From: Myxococcus sp.
Lineage (GTDB): Bacteria > Myxococcota > Myxococcia > Myxococcales > Myxococcaceae
Length of the DNA stretch: 64,000 bases
Assembly: GCA_014879945.1 (NCBI GenBank)
Contig: JACSRE010000148.1
Span: 1 to 64,000 of the forward strand
Direction: 5' to 3'
Position numbers and translations under genes: made by a program. Positions 1 through 42,873 of the stretch are shown here, piece by piece. Each line of letters begins with the position of its first letter. Within the stretch, counting starts at the first letter, position 1. The notes beneath the pieces were generated by a model. The model had not been told where the DNA came from. It worked only from the letters and a program-made list of their open reading frames with translations, and did not search any database.

Positions 1-1527
<1,527 letters not shown>

Positions 1528-1585
1528 TTCACCGCTGACCGGTCGGCGCGAACGGCGCTGACGGGTTGGGTCGAGGCCTCCGAGA

Positions 1586-1613
1586 CCCCCGGGTTTCGGG
1601 GGCCTTCGTCTTT
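1586..1613 (+). terminator. Probable intrinsic terminator after groEL
   Basis: A 6-bp GC stem CCCCCG / CGGGGG (1586-1591 and 1597-1602) with a 5-nt loop is followed by a T-rich stretch (CCTTCGTCTTT). It lies between the groEL stop and the next start codon on the same strand, so it probably ends groEL transcription. Confidence 0.6.
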
Positions 1614-1632
1614 CGAGGCCGAGGGAGCTCCC

Positions 1633-2010
1633 ATGCCGAAGGTGACGACCAGCCGCGCGAGAACCGTGTCCGCCCCGAAGAAGCCTGCCGCCAAGCCGAA
1701 GACGGCCGCGAAGCCGAAGGCGAAGGCGCCCGCGAAGCCGAAGACGACCGGCTGGTCGGCCACGGGCAAGAGCACGGGCCGGGGGAGCGCCGTCGGCGGG
1801 CGCGGCAGTGATCGATCGACGCGCGAGTCACGCGAGACGATTCGCAACTCGTACGTCGGCGGCCGTGGCAGCGACCGCTCGACGGCCGACTCACGCGAGC
1901 GCATCGCGAACATGTACTCGGGCGGCCGTGGCAGCGACCGCTCGACCGTCAGCTCCCGCGAGACGGTTCGCGAGTGGTTCGGCGGCGGCGGGGGCGGTCG
2001 CGGCTCCTGA
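1633..2010 (+). CDS. Small basic protein with three 21-residue GGRGSDRST repeats
   Basis: Predicted 125-residue protein of unknown function. Residues about 15-42 are a Lys/Pro/Ala-rich stretch (KPK and AKPK repeats) like the disordered tails of DNA- or RNA-binding proteins. Residues 54-116 are three tandem 21-residue units, each beginning (V/S)GGRGSDRST and continuing with an SRE...Ile/Val pattern, encoded by three 63-bp DNA repeats (1792-1854, 1855-1917, 1918-1980). A Gly-rich end (GGGGGGRGS) follows. The start is ATG 1633, preceded by GAGGGAG about 6 bp upstream. The start of the next gene overlaps its 3' end. I do not recognise the family; a nucleic-acid-binding role is only a guess from composition. 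Confidence 0.7.
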   Translation: MPKVTTSRARTVSAPKKPAAKPKTAAKPKAKAPAKPKTTGWSATGKSTGRGSAVGGRGSDRSTRESRETIRNSYVGGRGSDRSTADSRERIANMYSGGRGSDRSTVSSRETVREWFGGGGGGRGS

Positions 2011-2960
2011 CGACGAGACGATCGCTCGAGCTCCGCGCGCTGGCGCGGCGGCTGCTGCCAACGCTCACCGCCCCTGACGACGCTGTCGCCCTCACCGGCT
2101 CTGCCGCGCGAGGTAACGCCCGCGCCGACGCCGATCTCGACCTCTGGGTCCTGGGAGCGCGGACCGGTCGGGCAATCGTGAGCCGGGCTGGCGTCTCGGT
2201 GACCCTCCTCGCCCAGCGCCCGACCGAGGCGCGCGCGTTGGACAACCTCTGCTTCTATGAGGTCGAGGACCTCATCGTCCTACAGGACCCGCGCGGCGAC
2301 TTCGAGCGGCTGGTCAGGACCTGGCGCGCGAACAGGCGTCGGTTGCGCGCGCGCATCATCGCCGCGACCGAGGCCCAGCTGGCGTGGGAGCTCGAGCGCA
2401 GCAGCCGCGGCAGCCCGCTCCACCGCGCGGCCTTCCTGAGGCTCTCGGCGTGGCGCATGGCCTGCCTCTTCGTCTTCCTCGAGACGGGCTGGCGGGTGCC
2501 CCGGCTGCACCTGCTCGACGAGGTGCTGCCCGTGCGCGAAGGCCGGCGGCTGAGGCGAGCGCTGGCGCTGCCACCGGCCGAGCGCTGTCGTCGCGTCGTG
2601 CGGCGGGTCCCCAGGGCCATCAGGGAGCTGGAGGCGATGCTCGCGCGCGACGGCGCGCCGACCCGCCTCGACGTGCCCGAGTCGATCGCCGCGAAGGCCA
2701 GCACCAACCCACGGGAGTCCGCCTTCCTGGCGCGGCGCGAGCTGGTGCTGGAGTGGCTGCCGGCGGTGTTCGCCCGCTACGGCGTCACCGACCTCAAGGG
2801 GGTCGAGCTGCTCGAGCACGCTCCGACGGCGCGGGCCCTGCTCCTGGCGCTCGAGCCCCGCGCGACGGCGGCCTCCGTGACGGCGCTCTCTCGTGAGGTG
2901 CGCGCGCTCGGACGCGGGCTGGGGCTCGCGAGTCGTCGCGCGGTCTCGTGGTTCTTCTGA
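1974..2960 (+). CDS. Nucleotidyltransferase-fold protein
   Basis: 328 residues from a GTG start. Residues 41-58 (TGSAARGNARADADLDLW) carry the signature of the DNA polymerase beta-type nucleotidyltransferase superfamily: a GS motif, then Asp residues 52, 54 and 56 placed to bind metal. The rest is Arg/Leu/Ala-rich and helical, with no second domain I recognise. The only non-CTG start before the GS motif is GTG 1974, which overlaps the previous gene by 37 bp, so the exact N-terminus is uncertain. The substrate (protein, tRNA or antibiotic) cannot be told from sequence. It is probably co-transcribed with the upstream small basic protein. Confidence 0.7.
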   Translation: MVRRRRGRSRLLTTRRSLELRALARRLLPTLTAPDDAVALTGSAARGNARADADLDLWVLGARTGRAIVSRAGVSVTLLAQRPTEARALDNLCFYEVEDLIVLQDPRGDFERLVRTWRANRRRLRARIIAATEAQLAWELERSSRGSPLHRAAFLRLSAWRMACLFVFLETGWRVPRLHLLDEVLPVREGRRLRRALALPPAERCRRVVRRVPRAIRELEAMLARDGAPTRLDVPESIAAKASTNPRESAFLARRELVLEWLPAVFARYGVTDLKGVELLEHAPTARALLLALEPRATAASVTALSREVRALGRGLGLASRRAVSWFF

Positions 2961-3021
2961 CGCCCTCGCCCTCGATCGGGTGGAGCCCCGTCGCTGAGGC
3001 CGCGCGCGCGGTGACTCTCGA

Positions 3022-3330
3022 CCCATCGGGAGGACGCCCGCGACCCGCCAACCCGAGGCGCGCGCGGCGCCCCCTGACTCGCTGGCGTCTCGCCCCATCG
3101 GGAGGACGCCCGCGACCCGCGAACCCGAGGCGCGCACGGCGACGCCTGACTCGCTGCAGTCTCGCCCCATCGGGGGGACGCCCGCGACCCGCGAACCCGA
3201 GGCGCGCACGGCGACACCTGACTCGCGGCCGTCTCGCCCCATCGGGAGGACGCCCGCGACCCGCGAGGCCGAGCCGCGCGGCGACGCCCGACTCGCTCCC
3301 CGCTCGCCCGACTCGCCCCGTCGGGAGCCA
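3022..3330. repeat. 72-bp tandem repeat, four copies plus a degenerate fifth
   Basis: This fills most of the 455-bp gap between two convergent genes (2961-3415). The block CCCATCGGG(A/G)GGACGCCCG recurs at exactly 72-bp steps beginning at 3022, 3094, 3166 and 3238, with a diverged copy near 3317 (CCCGTCGGGAG). Adjacent units differ at only a few bases. Because 72 is a multiple of 3, long frames stay open on both strands, but these run into clearly coding neighbours, so I treat the array as non-coding. No gene is seen elsewhere in this gap. Confidence 0.85.
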
Positions 3331-3415
3331 GCCTTCTGCTCGACCACGATCCTCGTTGCCGATGCGGCCGGCCGGTCAGCTCCGCCCGGCTCAGGGACGG
3401 CTGGCCGCGGTTGCG

Positions 3416-4528
3416 TCAGTCAGGGGCCGGTGCCCGGCGCTTCTTCGGAACCACCAGCCCACGGGACAGGCGCTTGAGCACCACGTCGCGCTGCCGTTGC
3501 TTGTAGCGGTCGTGCGAGTTCTCTCCCCGCTCGTTCTCTGCGGCCTGCTTCTCGTCGGCGATCTGGAACTCGCAGGTGGCCAGGGTGATGCGGCCGCGGC
3601 GGCTGCGATCGTCGTACTCGGGCGGCGGGAGGTAGGCGTCGAGCCGAATCGGCACGTCGGCCACGAAGTTCAAGATGCGGTAGGTCGACCCCGAGAAGGC
3701 GTTGCCGCGCTTGCCCTCTTCGCGCTCCTCGTAGTCCACGTCGAGGTGCAGCTGCTTGGCGTACTTGCGGAAGTTCGGGTACTGCACCAGCAGGTCCTTG
3801 AACCGCAGCAACGTGTTCTCGGTCTGCGCCGGCACCAGGAAGTTGAAGGGAATCAGGCGCTGCATCAAGAAGTAGAGCGTCGGCAGCACGTCGTCACGCT
3901 CCTTCACGATGACCCGGAAGCGCGTGCGGTCGTAGACGGCGGCCGCGGTCGAGTCCTTCTTGGCGATGAGCTTGGTGATCACCGACTGCCGGCCCTTGAT
4001 CGAGTCCGAGAACTCCACGATCGGGAGCCCCTTGACCCGCGCCTCCTCGATGACGGCCTTCACGCGCTCCGACACCATCTCGGCCAGCCCGGCCTCGGAG
4101 ACGGCCGTCTTGAACATCAGGTCGCGCGCCTCGATGTGCTGAATGACGTGCATCACCTTGAGCACCACGCAGGCGATCTTCCGGTACTTCTTGTCGATCT
4201 GGCCTGACGCATACAGGAACAGATCGTGGATCATGTTGGGGTTCGCGACGGCGTCGGCCACCTTGTAGTCGAAGGTTCGGCGCAGGTACTCGACCGCGTC
4301 ATGGAGCACCACCCGCACCCACGCCTCGTCGTGCGCCTGGGTGGGGTCGATCTGGCAGAGCCGCAAGAAGCGGTCGACCTCGTCCCAGGTGGTGAAGTGC
4401 ATGCGCCGCCACTCGATGATCGAGCCCCCGCGCAGGAGCAGGCGCAGGCGCTCCAGCTCCTTGAGCCCCATCTCTTCGACGCGCCTGACGGGCATGTCAG
4501 GGAACGTCGGCTGGTGTTTGAGCGCCAC
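3416..4528 (-). CDS. Conserved hypothetical protein, TIGR04552-like
   Basis: 370 residues from a GTG start. The protein is soluble and charged, with a Lys/Arg-rich C-terminus (KKRRAP). It resembles the delta-proteobacterial family I know as TIGR04552, whose function is not established. The centre (about residues 180-245), with IKGRQSVITKLIAKK followed by DRTRFRVIV, loosely resembles the substrate-binding strands of RelA/SpoT nucleotidyltransferases. That similarity is by eye and could be superficial. An internal Met at residue 12 is an alternative start. It converges on the nucleotidyltransferase-fold gene across the 72-bp repeats. Confidence 0.75.
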   Translation of the reverse strand: MALKHQPTFPDMPVRRVEEMGLKELERLRLLLRGGSIIEWRRMHFTTWDEVDRFLRLCQIDPTQAHDEAWVRVVLHDAVEYLRRTFDYKVADAVANPNMIHDLFLYASGQIDKKYRKIACVVLKVMHVIQHIEARDLMFKTAVSEAGLAEMVSERVKAVIEEARVKGLPIVEFSDSIKGRQSVITKLIAKKDSTAAAVYDRTRFRVIVKERDDVLPTLYFLMQRLIPFNFLVPAQTENTLLRFKDLLVQYPNFRKYAKQLHLDVDYEEREEGKRGNAFSGSTYRILNFVADVPIRLDAYLPPPEYDDRSRRGRITLATCEFQIADEKQAAENERGENSHDRYKQRQRDVVLKRLSRGLVVPKKRRAPAPD

Positions 4529-4572
4529 GCGGGCGAGTTACCGGAAGCCTCGAGGCGCCTCCAGCCGATTCC

Positions 4573-5385
4573 TCACGGCGGGAAGCGGACGCACACCCCG
4601 TTGCCGTTCTCGAACGCGTACCCGAGCGTCAGCGTGGTGACCGCCTCGGGGCCGCACTGCGAGATCAGCAGCGTGGCGTTGGCGCCCTGCGCCGAGGGGG
4701 TGACGGTGACGCCGCTCGAGATCGTGCCGAGCGTCTGCCCCTCGCGATAGACGAACAACCGGGGGAAGCCGCCGTCAGCGAAGCGCGTGTTGAAGTCGTA
4801 GGCCTCGAGCTCGGTCACCGAGCGCCTGGTCGCGCCCGCCGGGCAGACCGTGGCGTCCACCGCGAACGAGACGGCGCGCCCGGCGGTGATCACCGGCCCG
4901 AACTGAACGGCCGGGTTCCACCTCAGGGGCGCAGCCGTCGCCGCGAAGTTCATGCACGCGGGACGGGGGACGTCGCGGCAGGTGCCAGAGACGCAGAGGT
5001 GGCCCGAGCCGCAGCCGGCGGGCTGGGGGCTCCCGACGTCACAGCTCCCGCCCGGCTCGCACTGGCCCGAGCTGGTGTTGCACAGCTCCGCGCCACAGAG
5101 GCCGACCACGCAGCCGCCGTCCGCCGGGCCGACGAGGCCCCCGTCGCTCGTGCGCCCCGCGTCGGCGGCAGCCACACACACCTGGCGGGTGCACCTGCCA
5201 GCGCCACAGTCCGCGCACGCCGCGGCGCCTCGGCCGCACGCAGAGACCTCTGCGCCGGTCTGGCAGACGCCACGGGCATCACAGCACCCGCCGCAGGTCT
5301 CCTGGTCACAGGGCTCCTGCCCCTGACAAGAGGCGATCGAGAGACCCAACAGCAGACCAATCGCGAGGACGAGGCGCTTCGACAT
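4573..5385 (-). CDS. Cys-rich lipoprotein
   Basis: 270 residues. The signal peptide MSKRLVLAIGLLLGLSIASC has a type II lipobox (IASC), so it is probably a lipidated envelope protein. The lipobox is followed by a compact module of about 10 cysteines (CDQETCGGCCDARGVC, then SACG and CADC) that recurs twice in the lipoprotein at 41632-42873. A linker rich in Asp, Gly and Ala follows, then a second small Cys cluster and a C-terminal domain of about 130 residues that looks beta-rich. A TTG codon 12 bases upstream would add four residues; ATG 5385 is preferred because it places the signal peptide first. Function unknown. Confidence 0.7.
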   Translation of the reverse strand: MSKRLVLAIGLLLGLSIASCQGQEPCDQETCGGCCDARGVCQTGAEVSACGRGAAACADCGAGRCTRQVCVAAADAGRTSDGGLVGPADGGCVVGLCGAELCNTSSGQCEPGGSCDVGSPQPAGCGSGHLCVSGTCRDVPRPACMNFAATAAPLRWNPAVQFGPVITAGRAVSFAVDATVCPAGATRRSVTELEAYDFNTRFADGGFPRLFVYREGQTLGTISSGVTVTPSAQGANATLLISQCGPEAVTTLTLGYAFENGNGVCVRFPP

Positions 5386-5403
5386 GGCCGTCACCAAAGC
5401 ACA

Positions 5404-5462: not shown

Positions 5463-5870
5463 TTAGTCCTTCTTCTCGCCTTCAGCCGCAGCAGGGGCCT
5501 CGAAGGCCTTCTGCTTGCGATCGACCAGCTCGAGGATCGCGATGTCGGCCGCGTCGCCCTTCCGGAAGTGGCCCTTGAGCAGGCGGGTGTAGCCGCCGGC
5601 GCGCTTGGAGTAGCGCTCCTTCAGCTCGCCGAAGACCTTCTGCAGCACTTCGCGGTTCTTCACGTGGCGGGCGGCCAGGCGGGCGTTGTGCACCCCACCC
5701 TTCTTGCCCAGGGTGATGATCCGCTCAGCCATGCGGCGGGCCTCTTTGGCCTTGGGGAGCGTGGTCTCGATGCGCTCGTGCTCGAGCAGCGAGGTGACCA
5801 TGTTGCGCAGCATCGCGATGCGGTGCGAGGTGGTGCGCTGCAGCTTTCGGTATCCGACTCGGTGTTCCAT
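5463..5870 (-). CDS. rplQ: 50S ribosomal protein L17 (bL17)
   Basis: 135 residues, near the usual 120-130. The N-terminus MEHRVGYRKLQRTTSHRIAM and the ARRMAERIITLGKKG segment are typical of bL17. The C-terminal tail ends in Ala/Glu/Lys (AAAEGEKKD). It is the last gene of the alpha-operon block, directly downstream of rpoA as in most proteobacteria. Confidence 0.97.
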   Translation of the reverse strand: MEHRVGYRKLQRTTSHRIAMLRNMVTSLLEHERIETTLPKAKEARRMAERIITLGKKGGVHNARLAARHVKNREVLQKVFGELKERYSKRAGGYTRLLKGHFRKGDAADIAILELVDRKQKAFEAPAAAEGEKKD

Positions 5871-22172: not shown

Positions 22173-22495
22173 ACGGCCGCGAGCCTAGTCGATTCGCGCT
22201 GAGAACAACGCGCCCCACCCGCAGCGTCGTCAGCGTTGTTTTCGGCATGGGCGGGCGCTCGAGCGAAGGGAGGTCAGTGACCCGGGCGCGCTTCGCGCTT
22301 GCGCTCGGTGTGCTGCGCGCACCGCCTCGCGGGGCGGAAGGCCACGGGGCTCCTGGCGGGGGCCTGCTGGGTGCGGGGGCGCGGGCGGGAGTCGACTGCC
22401 ATCGACAGATCTCGACCCGTCGCGGGGGCGTCATCGCGCTGGTGCCTGGGTTGCTGGATGCCTTGCGCCAGCTCGCCGGCGATTCGGCCAGGCGG
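22173..22495. other. Intergenic region without a recognised gene
   Basis: Leads from the PARP-finger gene start to the repeat array. Very GC-rich. Open frames exist on both strands but have no recognisable protein features and continue into the repeats in several frames. I see no RNA gene or promoter I would defend. Confidence 0.4.
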
Positions 22496-23430
22496 CGGCG
22501 CGTGGGCGCCCACCTTGTCCGCGCGAGGCGCTTCATCGCAGAAGCCAGCCTCGCCTCGTCGGCCTGCAGCAGCTCCACCGAAGAGACGCGCACGCGACCT
22601 CGAGACGGAGCTCCCGACGCGGACGCGGCGATCAGGCCACGCCCGGCCGGCGGCGCGTGGGCGCCCACCTCTCCGCGCGAGGCGCTTCATCTCAGTCGCC
22701 ACCTCGCCTCGTCGGCCTGCGCAGCTCCACGAAGCCGCGCACCGCGCCCCCGAGACGGAGCTCACCGAGCCGGACGCGGCGGTCAGGCCACTGCCGGGCG
22801 GCGGCGCCTGGGCGCCAACCTTGTCCGCGCGAGGCGCTTCATCTCAGACGCCAGCCTCGGCTCTCGGCCTGCGCAGCTCCTCCGAAGACGCGCCCCGCGA
22901 CTCGAGACGGAGCTCACCGAGCCGGACGCGGCGGTCAGGCCACGGCCGGGCGGCGGCGCGTGGGCGCCCACCTCTCCGCGCGAGGCAGTGCATCGCAGAA
23001 GCCAGCCTCGCCTCGTCGGCCTGCGCAGCTCCACGAAGCCGCGCACCGCGACCTCGAGACGGAGCTCACCGAGCCGGACGCGGCGAGCGCCAACCTGTCT
23101 GCGCGAGGCGCTTTATCGCAGACTCCAGCCTCGCTTCGTCGGCCTGCGCAGCTCCACCTCGAGACGGAGCTCACCGAGCCGGACGCGTCAGTCAGGCCAC
23201 GGCCGGGAGGCGATTGGTGGATTGGGCCGGGCGGCGGAGCGTGAGCGCCCACCTGGCCGCGCGAGCGCTTCGTCGCAGAAGCCAGCCTCGCCTCGCCGGC
23301 CTGCGCAGCTCCACGAAGCCGCGCTCCTCGAGAAGGAGCTCGGCGAGCTCGCCGCGCCGGACACCTCGCTCAGGCCACGGCTGGGAGGCGATCGGTCGAT
23401 TCGGCCGGGCGGCGGAGCGTGAGCGCCCAC
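22496..23430. repeat. Array of about six 150-bp degenerate tandem repeats
   Basis: A block containing the palindrome TGGGCGCCCA, then CCGCGCGAGGCGCTTCATC, a GAAGCCAGCCTCGCCTCGTC segment, CTGCGCAGCTCCACGAAGC, and GACGGAGCTCACCGAGCCGG recurs. Anchors lie at about 22501, 22656, 22807, 22959, 23087 and 23240, with a final partial anchor at 23419. Spacings are 155, 151 and 152 bp, then a shorter unit with about 28 bp deleted, then about 150-180. The spacings are not multiples of 3, so the repeat is not preserved as protein. The last partial copy forms the 3' end of the desaturase gene. Confidence 0.85.
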
Positions 23431-41631: not shown

Positions 41632-42873
41632 ATGATCACTCGTGCGCTCTTCGTCTTCATGGTCGCCTGCGGGGTGAGCGTTGGGCTCGCCGGCTGCGGC
41701 GTGTCGCAGTCACGCTGCTCGCAAGCCACCTGCACCGTCGGGTGCTGCGACTCGAGCGGGGCCTGCGCTTCGGGCAATACCCAGTCGGCCTGCGGAGCTC
41801 GTGGTGCGGCCTGTGTCGGCTGCACGTTCGGGTTCCAGTGCCTCGGCGGAGCCTGCATCGCGACCGGCAACGGCACCGGTGGAGGCTTCGCGACGGGCGG
41901 CGGCAACAACACCGCGGGCGGCTCAGCGACGGGCGGCGGCAACACCGCGGGCGGCTCCGCGACCGGCGGCGGCAACACCGCGGGCGGCTCAGCGACGGGC
42001 GGCGGCAACACCGCGGGCGGCTCCGCGACCGGCGGCGGCGACACCGCGGGCGGCTCCGCGACCGGCGGCGGCAACACCGCGGGCGGCTCGGCGACGGGCG
42101 GCGGCAACGCCGCGGGCGGCTCGGCGACGGGTGGCGGCAACACCGCGGGCGGCTCCGCGACGGGTGGCGGCAACGCCGCGGGCGGCTCCGCGACGGGTGG
42201 CGGCAACGCCGCGGGCGGCTCGGCGACGGGCGGCGGCAACACCGCGGGCGGCTCGGCGACGGGTGGCGGCAACGCCGCGGGCGGCTCGGCGACGGGCGGC
42301 GGCAACACCGCAGGCGGCTCCGCGACCGGCGGCGGGACGGCGGGCTGCGCCGCCTCGTGCGCGGGCTGCTGCCTCAACGGCGTTTGCCAGCCTGGCAACA
42401 CCACCGGCGCGTGCGGCGCCCGGGGCGTCGCGTGCTTCGCCTGCTCCACCAACCAGTTCTGCTCGGCGGGCGCCTGCACCGGCGCGAACACCGGCGACAC
42501 CGGCGCGACGTGCACCGTCAACGCCGACTGCAAGCAGGCCCTGCTCGGAGGCGCGACGCGCGAGTGCCTGGCGCCGTACCGGCCCGATGGTGGCCCGTCG
42601 GGGTGGCCGGGCGGGTACTGCAGCAACGCGGGCTGCAGCTCGTTCCTCGACTGCCCCGGCACCACCGGCTCCTGCGGCCGCGACGGCTTCTGCTACAACA
42701 CCTGCTTCCCCTCGAACCTGGGCCAGGGCAACTGCCGACCCGGCTACGTCTGCTCCGATGCCCTCACCGTCGACGGCGGCACCTTCGCCCTCTGCGTGCC
42801 CGACTGCAGAAACCCCGGCAGCATCTGGTGCGGCCCCGGAGGCGTCTGCAACAGCAGCGGCTACTGCCAATGA
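41632..42873 (+). CDS. Cys-rich lipoprotein with GGSATGGGNTA repeats
   Basis: 413 residues. The signal peptide ends in the lipobox LAGC (Cys 22). Next are a Cys-rich module (CSQATCTVGCCDSSGAC ... CGARGAACVGC), then 13 tandem 11-residue repeats (GGSATGGGNTA and variants NAA, DTA), a second copy of the Cys-rich module (CAASCAGCCLNGVC ... CGARGVACFAC), and a C-terminal region of about 130 residues with many paired cysteines. The Gly-rich repeat looks like a flexible spacer between two disulphide-knotted domains on the cell surface. The first module also occurs in the lipoprotein at 4573-5385. No enzymatic motif is seen. Confidence 0.8.
   Translation: MITRALFVFMVACGVSVGLAGCGVSQSRCSQATCTVGCCDSSGACASGNTQSACGARGAACVGCTFGFQCLGGACIATGNGTGGGFATGGGNNTAGGSATGGGNTAGGSATGGGNTAGGSATGGGNTAGGSATGGGDTAGGSATGGGNTAGGSATGGGNAAGGSATGGGNTAGGSATGGGNAAGGSATGGGNAAGGSATGGGNTAGGSATGGGNAAGGSATGGGNTAGGSATGGGTAGCAASCAGCCLNGVCQPGNTTGACGARGVACFACSTNQFCSAGACTGANTGDTGATCTVNADCKQALLGGATRECLAPYRPDGGPSGWPGGYCSNAGCSSFLDCPGTTGSCGRDGFCYNTCFPSNLGQGNCRPGYVCSDALTVDGGTFALCVPDCRNPGSIWCGPGGVCNSSGYCQ
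41917..42345 (+). repeat. 33-bp in-frame tandem repeat, 13 copies
   Basis: 13 copies of a 33-bp unit (GGCGGCTCCGCGACGGGCGG and 13 more bases) encode GGSATGGGNTA-type repeats inside the Cys-rich lipoprotein. One more degenerate unit precedes it. Copies differ mostly at synonymous sites and at one Thr/Ala position, so slippage or recombination could change copy number. Confidence 0.95.

Follow-up and report, generated by a model that had tools for sequence, protein, structure and literature searches.

A 72-bp tandem array between two convergent genes of a Myxococcus genome, probably a young intergenic minisatellite private to one locus

In a stretch of 64,000 nucleotides from a Myxococcus sp. 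genome (the window; G000:C60:1-64000, in a draft assembly of 7.72 Mb and 448 contigs), units of 72 bp are repeated in the spacer between two neighbouring genes. The question raised by this locus is whether the repeat is a protein-binding array, a decaying coding repeat or a hypervariable locus, the three possibilities named in a preliminary description of the same DNA. From the sequence comparisons described here the last, in the sense of a fast-changing locus, appears to fit best, because the array was not found in six other genomes of the genus and two of the four relatives in which the right-hand neighbouring gene was found carry an unrelated repeat near its end. Our reading, to which we assign a probability of about 0.85, is that the array is a young, locus-private, non-coding and probably neutral intergenic minisatellite that arose through duplication and slippage or unequal exchange. 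The features of the locus are as follows.

1974-2960, plus strand: nucleotidyltransferase-like gene, left neighbour, start codon uncertain (PF01909; homologue in G006)
About 2965-3015, no strand: degenerate partial copy left of the array (gapped match to the unit, score 41)
3016-3087, no strand: repeat copy 1 (TRF, unit comparison)
3088-3159, no strand: repeat copy 2 (TRF, unit comparison)
3160-3231, no strand: repeat copy 3 (TRF, unit comparison)
3232-3303, no strand: repeat copy 4 (first 35 bases as in copy 2, remainder diverged with small gaps)
About 3304-3327, no strand: degenerate partial fifth copy right of the array (match to the unit, score 31)
3416-4528, minus strand: TIGR04552 family gene, right neighbour (TIGR04552 profile match)

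The tandem array was reported by TRF at 3016-3309 with a period of 72, 4.1 copies, 89% matches, 0% indels and a score of 455. Among 20 first-order Markov surrogates of the window the highest score was 75; the array is genuine and lies far outside the range of chance. It had been described as four near-identical units followed by a degenerate fifth. Copies 1-3 are indeed near-identical (64, 65 and 68 of 72 bases in pairwise comparison), but the fourth is half-degenerate, with only 51-52 of 72 bases identical to copies 1-3 in the ungapped comparison. On alignment, bases 1-35 of copy 4 are identical to those of copy 2, and substitutions and small gaps follow. Beyond this copy the degenerate right fragment is present; it retains 15 of the 16 bases of the unit start, and its score was reached by 2 of 1621 window 32-mers. 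The whole 115-bp right flank is not significant against the unit, its score being reached by 0.206 of 500 shuffles. On the left side, the score of the partial copy was reached by 1 of 500 shuffles and by none of 1619 window 55-mers. The outer copies are thus the decayed ones. The G+C content is 79% in the array and 78% in the spacer DNA. The units are contiguous, head to tail and longer than about 10 bp, as in a minisatellite. A CRISPR array was considered and rejected, since the units abut without unique spacers.

The search for the unit elsewhere in its own genome, which had been proposed earlier, was run at E <= 0.001 and gave four matches, all inside the array, which therefore occupies a single locus. 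The genus comparison covered six other genomes, one per species; G002-G006 are drafts, and G004, G005 and G006 are 85-89% complete. In these the array gave three matches of 25-40 bp with a best E of 5.3e-4; G001, G003 and G005 each had one. The same search with the array reversed, which has no biological meaning and served as a control, gave two matches, both in G001, with a best E of 1.3e-5. The genus matches are therefore at chance level and were rejected as remote traces; above the control level, the array was found in none of the six. A 31-bp antisense match between the array and an 18-bp array of G003 (81%, E 0.007) was also taken as chance. When the unit was aligned with sequence past the TIGR04552 gene (G002-G005) or past the nucleotidyltransferase gene (G006), scores remained at shuffle level (reached by 0.115 to 0.85 of 200 shuffles). 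The spacer had no match in plasmids or phages at E <= 1e-5, and hence no sign of a mobile origin.

The TIGR04552 gene was found in five of the seven genus genomes, the source genome counted, and the end of this gene was inspected in the four relatives that have it. In G002 an 88-bp array of 3.1 copies (L040 2923-3191) lies about 100 bp from the end of the gene match. In G005 a 125-bp stretch occurs twice, at 93% identity and an offset of 133 bp, about 150 bp from the match end; it was seen by self-comparison and was not listed by TRF. Neither repeat resembles the 72-bp unit. No array was found near the gene end in G004. In G003 two 18-bp arrays, the first of about 74 copies and the second of 5.3, follow one another at L041 3654-5088, a little over 1 kb past the gene end. 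In two of the four relatives, G002 and G005, the gene thus ends close to a tandem repeat of unrelated sequence, which suggests turnover of arrays at this place. Since arrays are common in the genus, these two cases do not establish a hot spot. We consider it unlikely that the sequence directly past the TIGR04552 gene is a hot spot at which new, unrelated arrays repeatedly arise, with tandem duplication unusually active across the genus.

The genes on either side differ in how firmly they are assigned and how widely they occur. As described earlier, they are convergent, the nucleotidyltransferase-like gene on the left reading in the plus direction and the TIGR04552 gene on the right in the minus direction. 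The right neighbour matches its profile with 359.4 bits (cut-off 125); the left neighbour reaches 21.7 bits against PF01909, barely over the cut-off of 21. A homologue of the left gene, 69% identical, was found in G006 and was absent from the searches of G001-G005; its small partner ORF was found only in G006 among 59 other genomes, and the pair is adjacent there. With this patchy distribution of the gene and its partner, the left side of the spacer would itself be a patchy arrangement. The partner, ORF 1633-2010, lies directly before the nucleotidyltransferase-like gene and is small; its head is basic and AKPK-rich, and it contains three GGRGSDRST repeats of 21 residues. Its repeat part had a match in 1 of the 59 other genomes (G006), again beside the nucleotidyltransferase-like gene, and the two may form a moving two-gene unit. 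Both sides align with G004, at groEL (93%) and at the TIGR04552 gene (87%), but the spacer gives no alignment at E <= 1e-3.

Could the array be, or have been, part of a protein, either through the minus-strand frame, which gives 24-residue repeats with PMGRD, or through a plus-strand frame? The preliminary description had drawn attention to a period that is a multiple of 3 and to frames open on both strands, the PMGRD frame included. Both observations are correct. The open stretch of the minus-strand frame is 355 codons long (3347 to 2280), that of a plus-strand frame 419 codons (2948 to 4207), and five of the six frames are open within the array. They carry little information, however. Shuffled units repeated four times were open on each strand in 2000 of 2000 cases, with a mean of 5.18 open frames, so that open frames are expected from composition alone; both long frames overlap a neighbouring gene in antisense; and of the 21 arrays that the genus survey placed in intergenic gaps, 14 likewise have a period divisible by 3 (7 do not). 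This last count hints that some of the genus arrays called intergenic may lie in missed genes. Of the six frames the PMGRD frame does have the highest codon score, 0.076 per codon. This is below the values of 97.3% of the 595 windows taken from called genes; for 36 intergenic windows, the best-frame scores had a median of 0.011 and a maximum of 0.272. The codon test is weak. ORFs 1633-2010 and 4576-5397, which have homologues in relatives, reach just 0.065 and 0.056 when read in their own frames, and for real genes the antisense and the true frame have about equal scores. In the PMGRD frame, copies 1 and 2 and copies 2 and 3 together differ by 3 synonymous and 7 non-synonymous codons; codon positions 1, 2 and 3 are changed 3, 5 and 3 times, without a third-position excess. 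A single frame from each strand (minus, 110 residues; plus, 150 residues) was searched against 60 genomes; each found only itself, with no relative in the 59 others, and there was no Pfam or NCBIfam match at E <= 0.01. The suggestion of a decaying coding repeat is left without support by these results, and a coding origin is very unlikely.

Another explanation is that the array binds a protein or forms a barrier between the convergent transcripts, each copy being a binding site or a weak terminator. The position between convergent genes would suit such a role, and so would the unchanged bases 1-35 shared by copies 2 and 4 and the conserved unit start in the right fragment. Against it, the array contains no terminator-like site (a G+C-rich hairpin with a T run), the only one within 1400-4700 being at 1586, and folding of the 455-nt spacer is like that of shuffles (z 0.06), as are the eight single-copy folds (z -1.20 to 2.05). 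The inverted repeats listed are of 9-16 bases and mostly imperfect, which appears unremarkable for DNA of 78% G+C. A preference of arrays for convergent gaps was rejected for the three genus members surveyed, where 3 of 73 convergent gaps and 18 of 467 other gaps hold an array (Fisher p 1.0). The unit is moreover confined to its locus, and relatives have it at control level only. The protein-binding array proposed earlier has therefore gained no positive evidence, and binding or barrier function is quite improbable. An RNA element was rejected as well, since there is no Rfam match at the array and the folds are average; at gathering thresholds the window has only four tRNAs and an L17 ribosomal protein leader, all outside the array. 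The leader (RF03132, 5887-5939, minus strand, 37.2 against a gathering threshold of 34.9) precedes ORF 5463-5870, which we take to be the L17 gene. Folds of one 88-bp G002 unit and of the first 150 bases of the 152-bp array of the window (described below), on both strands, were also average (z -0.54 to 1.09). The remaining alternative is that the unit belongs to a dispersed family of the REP/BIME or MIRU type and happens to be in tandem here. The unit length is within the MIRU range of about 40-100 bp, but the unit has one locus in the draft genome, its genus matches are no stronger than the control, the spacer is without plasmid or phage matches at the threshold given above, and single copies fold no better than shuffles, so that neither a MIRU-like dispersed unit nor a REP/BIME element is recognized. 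There is next to no probability left for this alternative.

The frequency of comparable arrays was surveyed in stretches of the source genome, G002 and G004 and of two other genera of the family (G012 and G028). Genes were called with a simple codon-usage caller and not with a standard program. Periods of at least 20, scores of at least 100 and gaps of at least 30 bp were kept, and overlapping TRF rows were merged first; an earlier pass had dropped rows with a period under 10. Called intergenic gaps with an array numbered 5 of 168 in the source genome, 12 of 184 in G002 and 4 of 188 in G004; the caller left most of the repetitive ORF 1633-2010 intergenic, so that one of the five arrays of the source genome lies in a likely gene. 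In the other genera, the counts were 0 of 99 (G012) and 2 of 111 (G028). Comparison of 25 arrays with the fetched sequence (E <= 1e-4) gave 17 whose only match was their own source; the other eight cross-match, seven of them with periods of 24-60. Arrays were also counted at contig starts, under a separate filter (score 55 or more, any period). Contig starts touching an array were 4 of 18 in the source genome, 6 of 20 in G002 and 12 of 20 in G004, in total 22 of 58, in genus samples made of low-numbered contigs and mostly of their first 20 kb, so that contig ends are over-represented. The background array rates (1.8%, 3.6% and 1.3%, respectively) are far under these contig-start rates. Arrays thus probably break or collapse assemblies of the genus, and the true copy number at the 72-bp array may differ from that in the assembly.

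Two other arrays of the window are recorded here. One, at 22485-23085 with a degenerate match up to 23390, has a 152-bp unit in 3.9 copies, a period that is not a multiple of 3, and was called intergenic; it matches elsewhere over 105 bp at 93% (G000:C246:46995-47099) and over 51 bp at 88% on contig C192. The other, at 41884-42335, consists of 13.6 copies of a 33-bp unit with 92% matches and lies within a called gene or at its edge.

From the pattern of copies we infer how an intergenic minisatellite of this kind could have arisen. A local stretch of the very G+C-rich spacer would have been duplicated and then multiplied by replication slippage or unequal recombination. The inner copies would be kept alike by repeated exchange, and the outer copies would decay. 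The array would be close to neutral, and its location past both gene ends would explain why it is tolerated. Its youth and neutrality, like the slippage or exchange mechanism, are inferred. The array seems to have no function of its own, and to be an ordinary kind of repeat that comes and goes quickly. Taken alone it matters little, being one more private minisatellite. Together with the sampled relatives, it suggests that this myxobacterial genus often makes and loses intergenic arrays, and such arrays are probably one reason why assemblies of the genus break.

Among known systems, the array is closest in form to the bacterial intergenic minisatellites and the loci used in VNTR typing, where units of some tens of bases likewise follow one another head to tail, without gaps, at a single locus. 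The VNTR label requires a difference in copy number between strains, and the comparison covered one genome per species, so only the name minisatellite is applied. Among literature titles on tandem repeats, minisatellites and MIRU, no study of intergenic minisatellites in myxobacteria was found. MIRU are tandem, largely intergenic units of about 40-100 bp dispersed over many loci. The array resembles them in unit length, tandem arrangement and intergenic position and differs in having its unit at one locus. In E. coli, minisatellites are a small class of variable segments, 18 of 1,037 loci in one comparison (PMC2884548). In Myxococcus xanthus, a mutation study gives 27 of 39 indels as single-unit changes in simple tandem repeats, including a 16-nt motif (PMC11069108). 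The tandem repeats of Borgs are reported to evolve rapidly, to arise independently, to be often flanked by partial repeats and to be both intergenic and genic, and duplication-, slippage- and exchange-type processes are discussed for them (PMC9879509). Borg units are described as perfect and enriched in A, whereas the units of the present array are imperfect, 79% G+C and on a bacterial contig; partial flanking repeats and an intergenic site are common to both (PMC9879509).
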